Shown here: positions 2,066 through 17,188 of the stretch, in pieces
How the letters are laid out: each line of letters starts with the position of its first letter
Numbering within the stretch: the stretch's first letter is position 1
Source: Streptomyces sp. ICBB 8177
Lineage (GTDB): Bacteria; Actinomycetota; Actinomycetes; Streptomycetales; Streptomycetaceae
Direction of reading: 5' to 3'
Assembly: GCF_003144095.1 (NCBI RefSeq)
Contig: NZ_NSKH01000018.1
Span: 2,447,541 to 2,511,540, forward strand
DNA length: 64,000 bases
Translations under genes and position numbers: made by a program
The notes under the pieces: model-generated
Told to the model about the DNA's origin: nothing
The model's input: only the letters and a program-made list of their open reading frames with translations
Databases searched by the model: none

Positions 2066-4696
2066 GTGAAGGCTATCCGTCGATTCACTGTCCGAACGGT
2101 CCTCCCCGAACCCCTGCGCCCGCTGGGGGAGCTGGCGCAGAACCTGCGCTGGTCCTGGCATCCGGAGACCCGCGAGCTGCTCCAGTCCGTCGACCCCGGC
2201 GGCTGGCGCGCCGCGGGCGGCGACCCGGTGCGGCTGCTGGGCGCGGTGCCCGCCGACCGGCTCGCCGCCCTCGCCAGGGACCGCAGGTTCCTGCGGCGCC
2301 TGACCGCGGCGGCCGAGGACCTCACCGACTACCTCACGGGCCCCCGCTGGTACCAGGGCGCCGACCGCGAACTGCCCCGCGCCATCGCCTACTTCTCGCC
2401 GGAGTTCGGCATCACCGCGGCCCTGCCGCAGTACTCCGGCGGCCTCGGCATCCTGGCCGGGGACCACCTCAAGGCCGCCTCCGACCTCGGCCTGCCGCTG
2501 ATCGGCGTCGGACTGCTCTACCGGCACGGATACTTCCGCCAGTCGCTGTCCCGCGAGGGCTGGCAGCAGGAGCACTACCCGGTGCTCGACCCCAACGAGC
2601 TGCCGCTGACGCTGCTGCGCGAGCCCGGCGGCGACCCGGCCCGCGTCACCCTCGCCCTGCCCGGCGGCCGCACGCTGCACGCGCAGGTCTGGCAGGCGAA
2701 GGTCGGCCGCGTGCCGCTGCTGCTGCTCGACTCCGACGTGGAGGACAACGGCCCCGGCGAACGCGAGGTCACCGACCGCCTGTACGGCGGCGGCAGCGAA
2801 CACCGGCTGCTCCAGGAGATGCTGCTCGGCATCGGCGGCGTGCGAGCGGTACGCGCCTACTGCCGCGTCACCGGCCACCCGGCCCCCGAGGTGTTCCACA
2901 CCAACGAGGGCCACGCCGGCCTCCTCGGCCTGGAACGGATCAACGAACTCGCCCCGGAACTCGACTTCGACGCGGCGCTGGAGGCGGTGCGCGCCGGGAC
3001 CGTGTTCACCACGCACACCCCCGTGCCGGCCGGCATCGACCGCTTCGACCGCGGGCTGATCGGCCGCCACTTCGGGCCCGGCGGCGAACTGCCCGACGTC
3101 GACGTCGACCGGGTGCTCGCTCTGGGCGCCGAGAGCTACCCCGGCGGCGACCCGGCGGTGTTCAACATGGCCGTGATGGGTCTGCGCCTGGCCCAGCGCG
3201 CCAACGGCGTCAGCACCCTGCACGGCGCCGTCAGCCGCGCGATGTTCGCGGGCCTTTGGCCCGGGTTCGACCCCGAGGAGGTGCCGATCCGGTCCATCAC
3301 CAACGGCGTCCACGCGCCCACCTGGATCGCACCCGAGGTGTTGCGGCTGGCCGCCCGGCAGGTCGGCGGCCAGCGCACCGAGGACGCCCTGACCGTCGGC
3401 GGCGCGGAGCGCTGGGAGGCGGTCGAGTCGATCCCGGACGCCGCGATCTGGGAGCTGCGCCGCACCCTGCGCGAGCAACTGGTCGAGGAGGTGCGCGGCC
3501 GGCTGCGCGCCTCGTGGCGGCAGCGCGGCGCCGCGGACCTCGAACTCGGCTGGTGCGACCAGGTGCTGGACCCGTCCGTCCTGACCATCGGCTTCGCCCG
3601 CCGCGTGCCGTCCTACAAGCGGCTCACCCTGATGCTGCGCGACCCCGAGCGCCTGGCCGGGCTGCTGCTCCACCCGGAGCGGCCGATCCAGATCGTGGTG
3701 GCGGGCAAGGCGCACCCGGCGGACGACGGCGGCAAGCGGCTGGTCCAGGAACTCGTGCGCTTCGCCGACGAGCACCGGGTCCGCCACCGCATCGTCTTCC
3801 TGCCCGACTACGACATGGCGATGTCGCAGGCGATGCTGCCGGGCTGCGACGTCTGGCTCAACAACCCCTTGCGCCCGCTGGAGGCCTGCGGCACCTCCGG
3901 GATGAAGGCCGCGCTCAACGGCGGCCTCAACCTGTCGGTGCTGGACGGCTGGTGGGACGAGTGGTTCGACGGCGACAACGGCTGGTCGATCCCGACAGCC
4001 GATGAGGGCGCGGGCGCCGGGGCGCAGGGCGACGCCGACCGCCGCGACGACATCGAGGCCGCCGCGCTCTACCAGCTGATCGAGTCACGGGTCGCCCCCT
4101 GCTTCTACGACACCGACCGGGGGGGACTGCCGCGCCGCTGGATCGAGATGGTCCGGCACACCCTGGTCACCCTCGGCCCGAAGGTGCTGGCGAGCCGCAT
4201 GGTCCGCGAGTACGTGGACGAGCTGTACGCCCCCGCCGCCAGGGCGCACCGCGCGCTGACCCCTCGGGCGGCGCGCGAGCTGAGCGCGTGGAAGGCCCGG
4301 GTGCGCGAGCAGTGGCCCCAGGTGGCCGTCGACCACGTCGAGGCCCAGCCGGCAGGCGGCACACCCGAGTTGGGGTCCTCGCTCACCCTGCGGGTCAAGG
4401 TCGCCCTCGGCGATCTGGAACCCGGTGAGGTGGACGTCCAGGCGGTCTCCGGCCGGGTCGACGAGTCCGACCGCATCACCGATCCGGTCGTGGTCTCCCT
4501 CAAACCGGCAGGTGGCCGCCCCGACCTCGACGGCCGCAGGCTGTACGAGGGCCCGTTGACGCTGGACCGCAGCGGCCCGTTCGGCTACACGGTGCGCGTA
4601 CTGCCCGCGCACCCGCTGCTGGCCTCATCCGCGGAACCGGGCCTGATCGCCGTACCGCCCGAGACCACCGGGATGACGGCAGGCGTCCTGCGCTGA
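2066..4696 (+). CDS. glgP: Alpha-glucan (glycogen) phosphorylase
   Basis: Releases glucose-1-phosphate from alpha-1,4-glucans using pyridoxal phosphate. The chosen GTG gives an 876-residue protein beginning VKAIRRFTVRTVLPEPLRPL; the segment ELAQNLRWSWHPETREL is the DUF3417 N-terminal domain of the actinobacterial phosphorylase family. Active-site features include YFSPEFGI and GGLGILAGDHLKA near the N-terminus, HTNEGHAGLL in the middle, and the PLP-lysine motif EACGTSGMKAALNGG with K614. The length fits the family. It is divergent from glgE and convergent with the ABC exporter genes, separated from them by a strong hairpin. It and GlgX would work together in glucan breakdown. Confidence 0.93.
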   Translation: MKAIRRFTVRTVLPEPLRPLGELAQNLRWSWHPETRELLQSVDPGGWRAAGGDPVRLLGAVPADRLAALARDRRFLRRLTAAAEDLTDYLTGPRWYQGADRELPRAIAYFSPEFGITAALPQYSGGLGILAGDHLKAASDLGLPLIGVGLLYRHGYFRQSLSREGWQQEHYPVLDPNELPLTLLREPGGDPARVTLALPGGRTLHAQVWQAKVGRVPLLLLDSDVEDNGPGEREVTDRLYGGGSEHRLLQEMLLGIGGVRAVRAYCRVTGHPAPEVFHTNEGHAGLLGLERINELAPELDFDAALEAVRAGTVFTTHTPVPAGIDRFDRGLIGRHFGPGGELPDVDVDRVLALGAESYPGGDPAVFNMAVMGLRLAQRANGVSTLHGAVSRAMFAGLWPGFDPEEVPIRSITNGVHAPTWIAPEVLRLAARQVGGQRTEDALTVGGAERWEAVESIPDAAIWELRRTLREQLVEEVRGRLRASWRQRGAADLELGWCDQVLDPSVLTIGFARRVPSYKRLTLMLRDPERLAGLLLHPERPIQIVVAGKAHPADDGGKRLVQELVRFADEHRVRHRIVFLPDYDMAMSQAMLPGCDVWLNNPLRPLEACGTSGMKAALNGGLNLSVLDGWWDEWFDGDNGWSIPTADEGAGAGAQGDADRRDDIEAAALYQLIESRVAPCFYDTDRGGLPRRWIEMVRHTLVTLGPKVLASRMVREYVDELYAPAARAHRALTPRAARELSAWKARVREQWPQVAVDHVEAQPAGGTPELGSSLTLRVKVALGDLEPGEVDVQAVSGRVDESDRITDPVVVSLKPAGGRPDLDGRRLYEGPLTLDRSGPFGYTVRVLPAHPLLASSAEPGLIAVPPETTGMTAGVLR

Positions 4697-11218: not shown

Positions 11219-12280
11219 GTGATCAGCGCAGCGAAGCACCGCCTCCGGGCGGCCGGGGCGACGGCCGCCGCCGTGGCCCTGGCCGCGCTCTCGGCCCTCG
11301 TTCTCGCCGGCGACACCGGGCACCCGCCCGCGCCCCGGCCCCCGGTCGCCGCCCGGCCGGAACACCGCGCCATGTTCACCGGGTTCACCGGCTCCTACAC
11401 GCCGGACGCCGGGGCCACCGTCGGCACCGGGATGATCGTCTCCATCGTCTTCGACCACCCGGTCGCCGACCGCGCCGCCGTCCAGCGGGCCGTCAGCGTC
11501 CGGGCCACCCCCTACGTGCCGGTGGCCGGGCACTGGTTCGGCGACCGGCGCCTGGACCTGCGGCCGCAGGCGTTCTGGGCTCCCGGCACCCGGGTCGACC
11601 TGCGCCTGCGGCTGCGCGGGGTGCGGGGCGCGCCGCACACCTACGGCACGCAGGACGAGGACGTCGTCTTCCGTGTCGGCCGCGCCCAGACCGACACCGT
11701 GGACACCGACGCCCACACCCTGACCGTGCGACGCGGCGACCAGGTCGTGCGCACCCTCGCGGTCAGCGCGGGCGGCCCGCAGCACGCCACGTACGACGGG
11801 CTGATGGTGATCAGCGAGAAGTTCCCGGTGACCCGGATGAACGGCTCGACGGTCGGCTTCGGCGGGGAGTACGACATCCCGGACGTGCCGCACGCGATGC
11901 GCCTGACCGACTCGGGCACCTTCCTGCACGGCAACTACTGGTCGCCGCCCGGGGTCTTCGGCACCGCCAACACCAGCCACGGCTGCGTCGGCCTGCGCGA
12001 CGTCAAGGGCGGCGGCGCGCACACCCCGGCGGGCTGGCTGTACGCCAACTCCCTGATCGGCGACGTCGTCGAGGTGACCGGGGGCCACGGCGGCCCCGTC
12101 GCGCCCGACAACGGACTCGGCGGCTGGAACATGCCGTGGTGGCGCTGGACCGGCGAGCCCGCCCCCCGGCACCGTACCTCCGCGTCCGCCCAGGCCCACG
12201 CCTCCGCCGCGTCCGCCCAGGCCCACGCCTCCGCCGCGCCCACCCGCCCCGCGGCGACGGCTTTTGCTACGCAACGGTGA
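11219..12280 (+). CDS. Secreted L,D-transpeptidase (YkuD), paralogue 1
   Basis: Peptidoglycan 3-3 cross-linking enzyme, 353 residues, GTG start. An N-terminal hydrophobic segment (residues ~12-31, ending LVLAGDT) acts as signal peptide or anchor; there is no lipobox Cys. One bacterial Ig-like domain (about 45-145, containing HWFGDRRLDLRP) precedes the YkuD domain with catalytic His237 in FLHGNYW and Cys256 in NTSHGCVGLRD, the 19-residue spacing seen in actinobacterial Ldts. The C-terminal tail has a tandem ASAQAHASAA repeat, encoded by duplicated DNA at about 12178-12235. Paralogue of the next gene, but lacking its lipobox and its first Ig domain. Confidence 0.88.
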   Translation: MISAAKHRLRAAGATAAAVALAALSALVLAGDTGHPPAPRPPVAARPEHRAMFTGFTGSYTPDAGATVGTGMIVSIVFDHPVADRAAVQRAVSVRATPYVPVAGHWFGDRRLDLRPQAFWAPGTRVDLRLRLRGVRGAPHTYGTQDEDVVFRVGRAQTDTVDTDAHTLTVRRGDQVVRTLAVSAGGPQHATYDGLMVISEKFPVTRMNGSTVGFGGEYDIPDVPHAMRLTDSGTFLHGNYWSPPGVFGTANTSHGCVGLRDVKGGGAHTPAGWLYANSLIGDVVEVTGGHGGPVAPDNGLGGWNMPWWRWTGEPAPRHRTSASAQAHASAASAQAHASAAPTRPAATAFATQR

Positions 12281-12317: not shown

Positions 12318-12422
12318 TGTGAGAACCCTGTGAGGGCCAAGTGACGTGATCCCCGGGGGGATCGGCACGACGCCGACCGGGCAGTTATGTGGGCGACGGT
12401 TCGCGCGAGGGGAGTGCAGAGG

Positions 12423-13640
12423 GTGAAGCGGATAGGTACGGCGGCGTCCGGGGCCCGGCGGGGTCTGCTGGCGGGGGCGGTCGGCGCGATACTGCTGCTG
12501 GCCACCGCGTGTGGCGGCCACGGCGGCACCGGTTCCGGCGCGGGGAGCTCCGGCGAGTCGGCCGCCAAGACCTCGCAGGCCGTGGTCACCGTCCTGCCGC
12601 GGGACGGCGCGACCGACGTCGCCACCAGCGGGGCCCTGAAGGTGACGGCCGCGCACGGCAGGCTCACCCAGGTCGAGGTCAAGGACGGCAAGGGCACCGA
12701 GGTGCCGGGGAAGGTCACCCCCGACGGCACCGGCTGGACGCCCGACTCCCACCTCGCCGTCTCCACCAAATACACGGTCGACGCGGTCGCCAAGGACGAC
12801 CAGGGGCGCCAGTCGGCCAAGCACGCCACGTTCACCACGGTCGTGCCGAAGGACTCCTTCATCGGCTTCTTCACCCCCGACGACGGCACCACGGTCGGCG
12901 TCGGCACCGAGGTCTCCCTCAGCTTCAACCGGCCGATCGACGACACCAAGGCGGTCGAGGACGGCATCAAGGTGACCGCCTCGCCCTCCGTCCCGGTCGT
13001 CGGCCACTGGTTCGGGAACCAGCGCATCGACTTCCGCCCGGAGAACTACTGGGCGCCGGGCACCAAGGTCACGCTCAGCCTGCGCCTGGACGGCGTCCAG
13101 TCCGCCCCCGGCGTCTACGGCAGCCAGAGCAAGGACGTCCACTTCACCATCGGCCGCAACCAGGTCAGCTACGTGGACGCCTCGACCCACGAGATGCGGG
13201 TCACCCAGAACGGGCAGACGATCAAGACCATCCCGATCTCCGCGGGCAGCCCCGAACACACCACGTACAACGGCAGGATGGTGATCAGCGAGAAGGACCC
13301 GATCACCCGGATGAACGGCTCGACGGTCGGTTTCGGCGGCGAGTACGACATCCCGGACGTGCCGCACGCGATGCGCCTGACCCAGTCCGGCACCTTCATC
13401 CACGGCAACTACTGGGGCGCCGACTCGGTCTTCGGCAGCGAGAACACCAGCCACGGCTGCGTGGGCCTGCGCGACGAGAAGGGCGGCGGCGAGAACGGCA
13501 CGCCCGCCGCGTGGTTCTACGACCACTCGATGATCGGCGACGTGGTGGTGGTCTCCAACTCCCACGACCACACCGTCGCCCCCGACAACGGCTTCAACGG
13601 CTGGAACATGCCGTGGTCGCAGTGGACCGCCGGCCAGTAG
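12423..13640 (+). CDS. Lipoprotein L,D-transpeptidase (YkuD), paralogue 2
   Basis: 405-residue lipoprotein: basic N-terminus, hydrophobic stretch and lipobox LLATAC-G place it on the outer face of the membrane. Two Ig-like domains (about 50-135 and 140-235) precede the YkuD domain with catalytic His327 in FIHGNYW and Cys346 in NTSHGCVGLRD. This is the LdtMt2-like architecture of actinobacteria. GTG at 12423 is preferred because it has the GAGGGGAG site 8 nt upstream; an in-frame GTG at 12414 sits too close to that site. The catalytic domain is very similar to the preceding gene, pointing to tandem duplication. It makes meso-DAP to meso-DAP cross-links; its specific role is not readable. Confidence 0.92.
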   Translation: MKRIGTAASGARRGLLAGAVGAILLLATACGGHGGTGSGAGSSGESAAKTSQAVVTVLPRDGATDVATSGALKVTAAHGRLTQVEVKDGKGTEVPGKVTPDGTGWTPDSHLAVSTKYTVDAVAKDDQGRQSAKHATFTTVVPKDSFIGFFTPDDGTTVGVGTEVSLSFNRPIDDTKAVEDGIKVTASPSVPVVGHWFGNQRIDFRPENYWAPGTKVTLSLRLDGVQSAPGVYGSQSKDVHFTIGRNQVSYVDASTHEMRVTQNGQTIKTIPISAGSPEHTTYNGRMVISEKDPITRMNGSTVGFGGEYDIPDVPHAMRLTQSGTFIHGNYWGADSVFGSENTSHGCVGLRDEKGGGENGTPAAWFYDHSMIGDVVVVSNSHDHTVAPDNGFNGWNMPWSQWTAGQ

Positions 13641-13664
13641 GCCCCCGCACCCCGCCGCACCGAC

Positions 13665-13694
13665 CGGAACGGCCCGCCCTGGCGGGCCGTTCCG
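13665..13694 (+). terminator. Terminator hairpin after L,D-transpeptidase 2
   Basis: Inverted repeat with 14-bp arms, core GGAACGGCCCGCC-CT-GGCGGGCCGTTCC, directly downstream of the stop codon and just before the -10 box of the next gene. Confidence 0.75.
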
Positions 13695-13707
13695 CGTTCC
13701 CGGGCGC

Positions 13708-13713
13708 TACGGT
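13708..13713 (+). promoter_or_regulatory. Leaderless-type -10 box of enoyl-CoA hydratase gene
   Basis: TACGGT lies 6 nt before the ATG at 13720, with no ribosome-binding site between. Placement predicts transcription from the A of the start codon. Confidence 0.5.
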
Positions 13714-13719
13714 CACCCC

Positions 13720-14487
13720 ATGACTGTTCACCTTGAGGCCGCCGACGGGGTCGGCGTCATCCGCCTGGACCGCCCGCCGATGAACGCGCTGGACGCCGCC
13801 ACCCAGGACGCCCTGCGCGACGCGGCCACCGAGTGCGCCCGCCGCGACGACGTGCGGGCCGTCGTCGTGTGGGGCGGGGAGAAGGTGTTCGCGGCCGGCG
13901 CGGACATCAAGGAGATGCAGGCGATGGGCTACGAGGAGATGGCCCTGCGCTCCCGCGAGCTCCAGGACTCCTTCACCGCCGTCGCCCGCATCCCCAAGCC
14001 CGTCGTCGCCGCCGTCACCGGCTACGCGCTGGGCGGCGGCTGCGAGCTGGCGCTGTGCGCCGACATCCGCGTCGCCGCCGAGAACGCCAGGCTCGGCCAG
14101 CCGGAGATCCTGCTCGGGCTGATCCCCGGCGCGGGCGGCACCCAGCGGCTGGCCCGCCTGGTCGGCCCGGCGAAGGCCAAGGACCTGATCTTCACCGGCC
14201 GCCAGGTCAAGGCCGACGAGGCGCTCGCCATCGGCCTGGTGGACCGGGTCGTCCCGGCGGAGAAGGTCTTCGAGGAGGCGCACGCATGGGCCGCGCGGCT
14301 GGCCAAGGGCCCGGCGCTGGCGCTGCGGGCCGCCAAGGAGGCGGTGGACGTGGGTCTGGAGACCGACCTGGAGACGGGCCTGGCCGTCGAACGCGGCCTG
14401 TTCGCCGGGCTGTTCGCCACCCAGGACCGCGAGACCGGGATGCGCAGCTTCGTGGAGGAGGGCCCGGGCAAGGCCAAGTTCGCCTGA
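13720..14487 (+). CDS. Enoyl-CoA hydratase/isomerase family protein
   Basis: Crotonase-fold enzyme of 255 residues that would hydrate 2-enoyl-CoA in fatty-acid oxidation. The oxyanion-hole segment FAAGADIKEM, the GYALGGGCELALCAD block with the first catalytic Glu, and the second catalytic Glu in GQPEILLGLIPGAGGTQRL are all present, so hydratase activity rather than a non-catalytic relative is likely. The C-terminal GPALALRAAKEAV and SFVEEGPGKAKF segments are standard. It sits alone between a terminator and a structured intergenic region. Exact acyl chain preference cannot be told. Confidence 0.9.
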   Translation: MTVHLEAADGVGVIRLDRPPMNALDAATQDALRDAATECARRDDVRAVVVWGGEKVFAAGADIKEMQAMGYEEMALRSRELQDSFTAVARIPKPVVAAVTGYALGGGCELALCADIRVAAENARLGQPEILLGLIPGAGGTQRLARLVGPAKAKDLIFTGRQVKADEALAIGLVDRVVPAEKVFEEAHAWAARLAKGPALALRAAKEAVDVGLETDLETGLAVERGLFAGLFATQDRETGMRSFVEEGPGKAKFA

Positions 14488-14499
14488 ACGCGGCCGCCT

Positions 14500-14505
14500 T
14501 ACGCT
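14500..14505 (+). promoter_or_regulatory. Possible leaderless -10 box in the gap after the hydratase
   Basis: TACGCT lies 7 nt before a GTG at 14513 in the gap between the hydratase and the ATP-binding protein gene. It has the same arrangement as the leaderless promoters elsewhere in the window, and so suggests a transcript covering the repeats and hairpin downstream. Confidence 0.35.
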
Positions 14506-14512
14506 CGTGTGG

Positions 14513-14563
14513 GTGACGGAAACGGTGGCGAAGTGGTCGCGGATGCCCTTAAACAGGCCTTAA
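14513..14563 (+). CDS. Possible leaderless micro-ORF (16 codons)
   Basis: GTG directly at the predicted transcription start opens a 16-residue frame, VTETVAKWSRMPLNRP, ending TAA at 14561. It contains one TTA leucine codon (rare in Streptomyces, read by the bldA tRNA) inside the first CCTTAA repeat. It could be a leader peptide or chance; the only support is promoter placement and the unusual codon. An overlapping frame from 14509 also stays open to 14574. No homology is claimed. Confidence 0.2.
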   Translation: MTETVAKWSRMPLNRP

Positions 14564-14574
14564 AACAACCTTAA
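14547..14574 (+). repeat. Three CCTTAA direct repeats with 11-bp period
   Basis: CCTTAA occurs at 14547, 14558 and 14569, exactly 11 bp apart, making an AT-rich island in very GC-rich DNA. An 11-bp direct-repeat period is the binding geometry of OmpR-type winged-helix regulators and SARPs in Streptomyces. No known box consensus matches exactly. Confidence 0.6.
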
Positions 14575-14744
14575 GGAACTCCGTTTCCCGGCCGGCTCGT
14601 CACCGCCCGTCGGTGGGTGATCACAGCAGGTCAGTGCGCTCATCACGGTGAACGCCCCGCTCAGGGCCCGGGAGCGGTGCCCGGCGGGCGTGGCCGGTAA
14701 CCGCCCCGTCCGGGCGGCCGGTTCCTCCGCTTCGGGCCCCAAGG

Positions 14745-14787
14745 CCTTCCTGACCGGCCATCATGAACTCATGGCCGGTCAGGGAGG
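14745..14787 (+). promoter_or_regulatory. 17-bp inverted repeat covering the start of the ATP-binding gene
   Basis: Arms 14745-14761 and 14771-14787 pair as CCTTCCTGACCGGCCAT / ATGGCCGGTCAGGGAGG: 13 consecutive perfect pairs next to the loop, then one G-U and three more pairs. The 9-nt loop is CATGAACTC. The first base of the right arm is the A of the annotated ATG, so in RNA the start codon is buried. It could be a translation switch or a protein operator. Confidence 0.7.
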
Positions 14788-15259
14788 ATCCGAGCAGTCG
14801 CAGGCTTCGGGCGCCACGGCGGTGGCGGTCGCGGGAGCGGTGCCGCACGACACCGGCACCCTCGAACTGCTGGGCAACCCCTCGGTGGAGGAGGTCTGCC
14901 TCACCTCCCGCCCCGAGTCCGCCGCCACCGCCCGCCGCCTCTCCCTCGCGGTGCTGCGTGCCTGGCAGTTGGCGCCGCTGGGCGACACCTGCGAACTGCT
15001 GGTGTCCGAACTCGTCGGCAACGCCGTCCGGCACACCGGTGCCCAGACCTTCGGCCTGCGGATGCTGCGGCGGCGCGGCTGGATCCGGGTCGAGGTCCGC
15101 GACCCCTCCCGGGCCCTGCCGTGCCTGCTGCCGGTACGCGAGCTGGACGTCAGCGGCCGCGGTCTGATGCTGGTGGACCGCCTCTCCGACCGCTGGGGCG
15201 TGGACCTGCTGCCGCGCGGCAAGACCACCTGGTTCGAACTGCGGGCCCTGGAACGCTGA
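14771..15259 (+). CDS. ATP-binding regulatory protein (RsbW/SpoIIAB-like HATPase)
   Basis: Single-domain GHKL ATPase of about 162 residues, a class abundant in Streptomyces as anti-sigma or serine kinase regulators. Visible boxes are N (ELVGNAVRHT), G1 (VRDPS, with the usual Asp) and G2 (SGRGLMLVDRLSDRWG), followed by GKTTWFEL. There is no histidine-kinase phosphoacceptor domain or membrane segment. The start is uncertain: ATG at 14771 lies in a strong hairpin without a ribosome site; in-frame GTG codons at 14822 or 14840 (the latter after GCGGGAG) and an upstream GTG at 14648 are alternatives. No sigma factor or antagonist gene is adjacent, so its partner is unknown. Confidence 0.8.
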   Translation: MAGQGGSEQSQASGATAVAVAGAVPHDTGTLELLGNPSVEEVCLTSRPESAATARRLSLAVLRAWQLAPLGDTCELLVSELVGNAVRHTGAQTFGLRMLRRRGWIRVEVRDPSRALPCLLPVRELDVSGRGLMLVDRLSDRWGVDLLPRGKTTWFELRALER

Positions 15260-15280
15260 CCGCCCGCCGCGGCACCCGGG

Positions 15281-17188
15281 TCAGCCCAGCGTGCTCGCCA
15301 GGCCGATCGGCTTCGGCTCGGTCTGGTGCAGGTCGAACACCAGGACCTCGTTGCCTCCGCGGCGCAGCCACGGCGCCGGGCAGTACAGCCGCCGCTGCGG
15401 GCCGAGTCGCCAGTAGCGGCCCAGGTTGGTGCCGTTGACCCAGACCACGCCCTTGGTCCAGCCCGACAGGTCGAGGTAGGTGTCGGCGGGCTCGTCCAGG
15501 TCGAGCGTGGCGCGGAAGAAGAGGCCGGGGCGGTGCGGGTCGCTCACCTTCGGGCGAAGGCCGCGCACGAACCGCTCGTCCATCGGCAGCAGGTGGGTCT
15601 CCCATCCGGTCAGCGGGTCGCCGCCGGCCAGGGTGACCGACTCCAGGATGCCCTTGCGGTCCACCAGCGCGTGGCCGTAGTTGGTGCGGCCCATGCCCTC
15701 GACCAGGATGTCCAGCACGCAGGCCGCGTCCTGGCCGGCGGGCAGGGTGAGCGGCGCGTTGCCGTTGGTCACGTTCAGGTCGCTCGCCAGGGCGTCCGGG
15801 ATCCGCGGGCGCGAGAAGCCGCCCGCGTAGGCCCCGTCCACGAAGACCGTCGCGTAGTCGTGCACCCAGCGGATGTCCAGGGCGCCGCCCGCGTAGTCCG
15901 CCAGTCGCTTGCGGTACAGCACGAAGCCGGAGTTCTGCCCGTACGTCTCGAACGGCTGCGGGTGCACGGTGTCGGCGGCGGGCAGCGCGGGCGGCAGGTT
16001 GTCCCAGACCGAGGCGAACGGCCGCGGTGTGACCGAGAGTCCGGCAAGCGTCGGCACCGGGTCGGGCACGGCGGGCAGCGGCGCGGACAGGTAGCCGCCG
16101 ATCAGGTCGCGGTAGGTGTCGTAGCGCGGGCCCTTGGCCCCCTGCTCGGTGACGGGGGCGCAGTAGTCGTAGCTGGTGATGTCCGGCTGGTAGTCGCCGG
16201 ACAGGTCGTCGGCGTTGGCGCCCGCGAAGAAGCCGAAGCTGGTGCCGCCGTGGATCATGTAGAGGTTGAACGACACCTTGCCGTCCATCAGCCCCTTCAG
16301 CGTCCCGGAGATGTCGGAGTCGGCGCCCTGGAAGCCGTCGTCGCCCCAGTGCGTCAGCCAGCCCGGATACACCTCGCCGGCCATCGCGGGCACGGAGGGG
16401 AACGCGGTCCGCGCCTGGGCGACGGAGGGCGCGTCGCCCCCGCTGAGCGCGACGGCGCCGCCGGGGACGTTCGTGTGGTTGGCCTCCACCTGCCCGAGAC
16501 CGTCCTCGGTGTAGAACGGGCCGTCCACTCCGGCCTCGATCCACGCCTGGCGGACCTCGGCCAGGTAGGTGGCGTCGTTCCCGTAGGAGCCGTACTCGTT
16601 CTCCACCTGCACCATGAGGACCGGTCCGCCGTTGGCCACGAGCAACGGCCGCACGATCCGGGCGAGTTCACGGACGTAGCGGCGGGCTGCGGCCATGTAG
16701 TGCGGGTCGTCGGCGGCGCGCACCCGCAGTTTGATGTCGGGGTACCGCAGCAGGTACGGCGGGATGCCGCCGAGGTCCCACTCGCCGCACACGTACGGGC
16801 CCGGGCGCAGCAGCACCCACATGCCCTCCTCCTGGCAGATCCGGATGAAGGAGGCGACGTCGCGGCGGTCGGTGCGGAAGTCGAAGACGCCGGGGCGCTC
16901 CTCGACGTAGTTCCACATCACGTACAGCGAGACGGTGTTCATGCCCATCGCCTTCGCCATCCGGACCCGGTGCCGCCAGTACTGAACCGGGATGCGCGCG
17001 GGGTGCATCTCTCCGCTGCGGATCTGGAACGGCTCCCCGTCCAGCAGGAAGGCGCTGCCGTCCGGGGCGAAGGAGAACGCGTGGCCGCCGGGCGACGGCG
17101 CGTTCGCGGCGAAGGCGGTCCCGGCGTTCACCGCCATCGCCGCGACCGGGCTCAGCGCGCTGACCATCAGGAAACGACGTCTGTCCAC
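15281..17188 (-). CDS. Secreted GH35 beta-galactosidase
   Basis: 635-residue glycoside hydrolase family 35 enzyme acting on beta-galactosides outside the cell. The N-terminus MDRRRFLMVSALSPVAAMAV has a twin-Arg motif followed by a hydrophobic stretch and a cleavage-like AFA-A, suggesting Tat export. The GH35 barrel shows IRSGEMHPARIP, VMWNYVEERPG and LRPGPYVCGEWDLGG; acid/base Glu is in VQVENEYGSYG and the nucleophile Glu in MAGEVYPGWLTHWGD. C-terminal jelly-roll domains include VWVNGTNLGRYW. GTG start at 17188 follows GGGGAG. The methyltransferase gene lies upstream on the same strand. Confidence 0.92.
   Translation of the reverse strand: MDRRRFLMVSALSPVAAMAVNAGTAFAANAPSPGGHAFSFAPDGSAFLLDGEPFQIRSGEMHPARIPVQYWRHRVRMAKAMGMNTVSLYVMWNYVEERPGVFDFRTDRRDVASFIRICQEEGMWVLLRPGPYVCGEWDLGGIPPYLLRYPDIKLRVRAADDPHYMAAARRYVRELARIVRPLLVANGGPVLMVQVENEYGSYGNDATYLAEVRQAWIEAGVDGPFYTEDGLGQVEANHTNVPGGAVALSGGDAPSVAQARTAFPSVPAMAGEVYPGWLTHWGDDGFQGADSDISGTLKGLMDGKVSFNLYMIHGGTSFGFFAGANADDLSGDYQPDITSYDYCAPVTEQGAKGPRYDTYRDLIGGYLSAPLPAVPDPVPTLAGLSVTPRPFASVWDNLPPALPAADTVHPQPFETYGQNSGFVLYRKRLADYAGGALDIRWVHDYATVFVDGAYAGGFSRPRIPDALASDLNVTNGNAPLTLPAGQDAACVLDILVEGMGRTNYGHALVDRKGILESVTLAGGDPLTGWETHLLPMDERFVRGLRPKVSDPHRPGLFFRATLDLDEPADTYLDLSGWTKGVVWVNGTNLGRYWRLGPQRRLYCPAPWLRRGGNEVLVFDLHQTEPKPIGLASTLG

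Follow-up and report, generated by a model that had tools for sequence, protein, structure and literature searches.

Operators of SARP regulators consist of heptamer repeats at 11 bp placed close upstream of the -10 element. Another regularly spaced site is the PmrA box of Klebsiella pneumoniae, which belongs to a regulator of the OmpR/PhoB family and in which the half-sites CTTAAT and CCTAAG have 5-bp spacing (excerpts of PMC3973317 and PMC4660055). In Streptomyces, BldC forms cooperative multimers, head to tail, on direct repeats of AATTXXXX(C) in 9-bp steps (excerpt of PMC5859096), and the OmpR-type regulator CutR has the AT-rich site TAWATAAA (excerpt of PMC12802291). SspH / SCO1241 is a HATPase-only regulator, for which the available excerpt describes no operator of the kind considered here (PMC9137472).

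The locus compared with these systems lies in a window of 64,000 nucleotides, the whole stretch of Streptomyces sp. ICBB 8177 DNA that was analysed. It holds an array of three boxes and two flanking genes:

13720..14487, + strand: enoyl-CoA hydratase (ECH) gene, the upstream neighbour (PF00378, E 3.4e-73)
14547..14552, + strand: box 1, CCTTAA, kept in the array-bearing loci, with a degenerate first unit in genus g10
14558..14563, + strand: box 2, CCTTAA
14569..14576, + strand: box 3, CCTTAAGG, palindromic by itself
14771..15259, + strand: HATPase_c_2 gene (RsbW/anti-sigma-like), 162 aa (PF13581, E 1e-09, queried from 14648)

The letters given in a preliminary description of this DNA were exact on re-reading of the window: CCTTAA begins at 14547, 14558 and 14569, a period of 11 bp, and the array forms an AT-rich island amid GC-rich DNA. 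The three-box pattern has a single match in the window, even at up to 3 mismatches. Throughout the 6.3 Mb of the strain's own genome, the pair of CTTAA words at 11 bp has two overlapping matches, both within this array, and the reversed control pattern has none.

Written as half-sites, the array reads CTTAAA-N5-CTTAAA-N5-CTTAAG and contains at least two CTTAAT/CCTAAG-like half-sites, head to tail and 5 bp apart. With the PmrA box it shares the head-to-tail order, the core and the 5 bp in between, which give the same 11-bp step (excerpt of PMC3973317). The earlier statement that no known consensus fits was therefore too strong, since CTTAA(A/G)-N5-CTTAA(A/G) resembles these half-sites. The PmrA box has two half-sites in the same excerpt, whereas the window has three and many g10 loci have four units; PmrA sites are placed at the -35 element (excerpt of PMC4660055), whereas the window array precedes the start codon by more than 200 bp. 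No promoter was recognised beside the window array, and the start codon is 224 bp away. The array and the BldC sites are both tandem, head-to-tail arrangements in Streptomyces, but the BldC word and step (excerpt of PMC5859096) are others than CCTTAA and 11 bp, and a BldC motif was rejected. CutR offers an OmpR-type regulator and an AT-rich site as likenesses, but its TAWATAAA (excerpt of PMC12802291) is not the array word and, by eye, is absent from the array, so that a CutR site was rejected too. Judged by eye, the spacing of the array fits a SARP operator but its position does not. SspH / SCO1241 is of the same general class as the HATPase_c_2 protein, a likeness of class and not of sequence (excerpt of PMC9137472). 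Among the literature matches listed, at the level of titles and abstract openings, there was no operator of such kind with CCTTAA or CTTAAG in Streptomyces.

Besides these described systems, a CCTTAR array with the same word, the same 11-bp step and a similar extended unit is found in Planobispora takensis (L080) and two relatives. It differs from the window array in having five units, in lying directly upstream of TTTGAC...GTAGGTTC, in showing no long flanking stem by eye and in preceding a different gene, by eye that of a secreted trypsin-like protease. These arrays stand at about 4360-4425 (minus strand) in L080, 1500-1590 in L306 and 1500-1575 in L308, and each reaches the TTTGAC...GTAGGTTC promoter-like sequence; they are possibly operators of a like kind in another family. 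The array letters of G477 are those of L080. In the G477 family, three CCTTA boxes at 11 bp occur in 5 of 100 genomes (reversed control: 2 of 100), and of the 394 genomes of the class, 3 have four boxes at 11 bp (control: 1). Exact three-box matches occur in at least 118 stretches, of which L080 and L149 were read in context. Some lie in unrelated bacteria (e.g. L089, L130 and L141), a part of them doubled at one place, and these may be PmrA-type sites, repeats or chance.

Within the family, exact CCTTAA triples at 11 bp were detected in 9 out of 121 genomes (reversed control: 1) and CTTAA triples at 11 bp in 17 (reversed control: 3). In all 17 genomes with a CTTAA triple, the triple lies, by coordinates, upstream of the orthologous HATPase_c_2 gene. 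Orthologous loci were taken from 90 (30 + 60 fetched) of the 117 genomes with a HATPase protein match. The array is kept in 41 of the 90 loci, with a triple score of 13-18 of 18; the other 49 score 8-12 and lack the array, with the HATPase gene present. Certain distant loci, which lack an ECH match next to the HATPase gene, may be paralogues, and all these counts run over related genomes and are not independent. By genus code, the array is present in 18 of 28 loci of g7, 17 of 27 of g10, 3 of 3 of g14, 2 of 2 of g1 and 1 of 2 of g8, and in 0 of 28 loci of the remaining ten codes. Genus g7 is probably Actinacidiphila, as its locus L047 matches L149, from Actinacidiphila glaucinigra, by eye.

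At a triple score of at least 15, period 11 is found in 34 of the 90 loci and periods 7-10 and 12-16 in none. Lowering the threshold to 13 gives 41 loci for period 11, with 6, 9 and 2 for periods 10, 12 and 16 and none for the other periods. Rotated words scored as well (TTAACC in 19 and AACCTT in 30 of the 90 loci), while unrelated words gave 0-5. Box word, 11-bp period and distance to the RsbW-like gene are conserved across the relatives, and the site is unique in the genome. The alignments comprised 40 of the 41 array loci (A1, with L270 omitted) and two hand-picked sets of 11 (A2) and 9 (A3) loci.

Two further blocks lie between the array and the gene:

14626..14631, + strand: GCAGGT block, 79 bp from box 1; GCAG[GCA][TC] is found at +77 to +79 in 37 of the 41 array loci
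14759..14765, + strand: CATSATG block ahead of the start codon, shared by all 41 array loci; a candidate -10 element of a possible leaderless promoter

CATSATG follows the array register at 202 bp in 30 of the 41 loci, at 201 in six, at 203 in two and at 200 in one; in g10 the register was set 11 bp before the first strong unit. The window and its congener have 212 bp, about one helical turn more than the other 39. Box 1 accordingly stands about 214 bp from the start codon, or 224 bp in the window's genus. With the end of the ECH gene placed by tblastn, the upstream gene is an estimated 23-123 bp from the array in 23 loci, and in 17 g10 loci the estimates span 19-300 bp. Across 19 representatives, mean pairwise identity is 71% in the boxes, 38% in the spacer (30-75 bp from box 1) and 54% from 78 to 202 bp; with 38% identity at constant length, the length of the spacer is kept without its sequence. 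A coding sequence as the reason for the fixed length was rejected, since every reading frame is interrupted in some of the 30 loci of equal length, the best one being open in 23. To our knowledge, a near-constant 202-bp register across genera with free spacer sequence is unusual for a bacterial promoter.

ATATGC occurs at +118 to +120 in 36 of the 41 array loci and is absent from the window's genus. Most array loci of A1 (e.g. L041, L049 and L253) carry, at a constant position about 83 bp before CATSATG, a TGCCnnnGGCATATGCC-like block that the window's genus lacks and that is perhaps the site of a second regulator. CATSATG is kept in 29 of the 49 array-less loci, 16 of which have a TTC block at exactly -38 from it, so the part near the gene is more widely retained than the array.

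Alignment of the relatives places the start of the HATPase gene at ATG 14771, rather than at that of the longer GTG frame from 14648. The protein is 97% identical in the congener. It has the HATPase_c_2 domain of the RsbW-like class, the NCBIfam model RsbA_anti_sig reaching 27.1 bits against a cut-off of 210, and no solved structure matched it at E up to 0.01. All 41 array loci have CATSATG, and only one shows a Shine-Dalgarno-like 4-mer in the 18 nt preceding the start, so that leaderless translation of the gene is possible. On the upstream side, a look-up of SCO4930 as a possible relative of the ECH gene led nowhere. Further upstream, the adjacent genes at 11219-12280 and 12387-13640 have similar translations, the second with a YkuD (L,D-transpeptidase) domain, and the pair looks like a duplication.

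Candidate regulators were compared between three genomes. The strain's own genome (G000) has 31 PF00486 matches, of which 23 OmpR-type regulators were compared with 18 from the array-bearing G176 and 28 from the array-less G084; the 8 further matches, mostly long SARP-like frames, were outside this comparison. Reciprocal best hits in G176 were found for 15 of the 23, and all 15 are also present in G084. In this three-genome test none of the 15 shared regulators tracks the site, and for the one genome pair with and without the array none of them was lost along with it. The binder, if it is among them, must have other duties. No PmrA orthologue was identified, none of the 15 being singled out, and no CCTTAA pair scoring 10 of 12 was found near the 23 regulator genes (74,133 bases).

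Together, these observations make it rather probable, in our judgement, that the array is a tandem operator of the OmpR/PhoB kind and that the HATPase_c_2 gene is its probable target; protein binding, regulator family and target are what we infer from the following. The triple precedes the orthologous gene in every genome that has a CTTAA triple, period 11 stands alone at the stricter score, and the distance to CATSATG is constant while that to the upstream gene varies. Moreover, PmrA half-sites have the same core and spacing (excerpt of PMC3973317), and the CCTTAR array of the other family runs to TTTGAC...GTAGGTTC in three contexts. The DNA-binding domains of the regulator, most likely of the winged-helix OmpR/PhoB type, would lie head to tail on one face of the helix in 11-bp steps. 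The operator would act on the HATPase_c_2 promoter as a distal element, about 214 bp ahead of the start codon or, in the window's genus, 224 bp. RNA polymerase or further factors are the probable binders of the fixed blocks GCAGGT, TGCCnnnGGCATATGCC (in most relatives), ATTCC and CATSATG. Against an operator speak its position more than 200 bp from the gene start, the lack of a recognised promoter beside it and its absence from 49 of the 90 loci, as well as the fact that no regulator was singled out and that no CCTTAA pair lies near the 23 regulator genes.

A chance repeat deserves next to no weight and was rejected, as 0 of 100 dinucleotide shuffles carried the three-box pattern and 41 loci have it in the same place and register. 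The preliminary description had left open a regulator site, a leader peptide or both, and proposed for the peptide the following feature:

14513..14563, + strand: micro-ORF of 16 codons, its GTG and frame shared by 2 of 41 loci; unsupported as a peptide gene

A leader peptide, or a leaderless micro-ORF with its TTA codon as an attenuator, is very improbable. Its letters exist as described (TACGCT at 14500-14505, GTG at 14513, TTA within box 1, 16 codons, or 18 if begun at GTG 14507), and 5 of the 41 loci, two of g1 and three of g14, share an 18-codon ORF that opens with GTG TGG GTG ACG and ends in the array. But the g14 ORF, which stops in box 3, has a different frame with respect to the boxes, the peptides diverge after VWVT, and 36 of the 41 loci have no comparable ORF. 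The stop TAA at 14561-14563 falls inside box 2, and since 11 mod 3 = 2, TAA repeated at 11 bp stops each of the three frames in an intact array, so the ending of the micro-ORF is imposed by the repeat and is no evidence for it. A GTG at this place and in this frame recurs in the congener alone, and among the sequences inspected TACGCT precedes the ORF only in these two. While start, frame and peptide are not conserved, the regulator site has held up in its word, spacing and distance.

The boxes might instead be conserved as RNA, in a plus-strand hairpin with CCUUAA units that ends transcription of the upstream gene or works as a regulatory leader. The hairpin in question is:

14515..14611, + strand: predicted RNA hairpin whose upper part contains the three boxes (-43.2 kcal/mol, z -2.42; matched in stability by 3 of 200 shuffles)

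We consider this reading doubtful. Seven of the eight loci folded have z of -2.4 or below (-2.42 in the window, then -2.97, -3.31, -4.11, -4.11, -4.79 and -3.03), with L259 at -0.33. In nine g7 loci, 6 of 20 pairs show compensatory changes on both sides and none of 500 shuffles reached the covariation score, but eleven g10 loci gave no significant covariation, with compensatory changes in 4 of 27 pairs and the score reached by 57 of 500 shuffles. At the array, folding favours the plus over the minus strand in 31 of 41 loci, compared with 23 of 41 for a downstream stretch and 14 of 41 for a coding stretch used as controls; the congener L032 has the opposite preference. In a sliding fold scan, noisy at 20 shuffles per position, the strongest stretch was often at the array and in several array loci elsewhere. 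Hairpin and array are also not strictly coupled, as the array-less L295, L273 and L265 have hairpins as strong or stronger, and it is not clear what a strict 11-nt period would mean for RNA. Boxes this close to palindromes pair among themselves in any case, so the argument for the hairpin rests on its outer stem. No Rfam family matched over 13400-15400 with E up to 1. Ms1 RNA, which matched by text alone, was rejected; its Streptomyces candidate is located between sco3558 and sco3559, according to the available excerpt. The compensatory changes in one subgroup do point to an RNA role as well: the predicted transcript-level hairpin, perhaps the terminator of the upstream gene, would share its place with the operator, or it may be part of the mechanism.

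Less probable than an RNA element is a site at which the AT-rich repeats are coated head to tail by a MerR/BldC-like or architectural protein instead of a response regulator. Cooperative multimers of BldC on direct repeats (excerpt of PMC5859096) and the AT-rich island of the array are in line with it, but BldC takes 9-bp steps on AATTXXXX(C), the array 11-bp steps on CCTTAA, and period 9 is found in 0 of 90 loci. More tentatively than the tandem operator by itself, we suggest that the array could be both a DNA operator and the upper part of an RNA hairpin that ends the upstream transcript, locked at about 202 bp from the start block in a rigid promoter complex in which length and not sequence is selected.

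If the operator reading is true, an operator that is apparently present once per genome in its strict form would have been added to the control of a small HATPase regulator widespread in the family, of a class which the literature ties to anti-sigma factors and antibiotic control.
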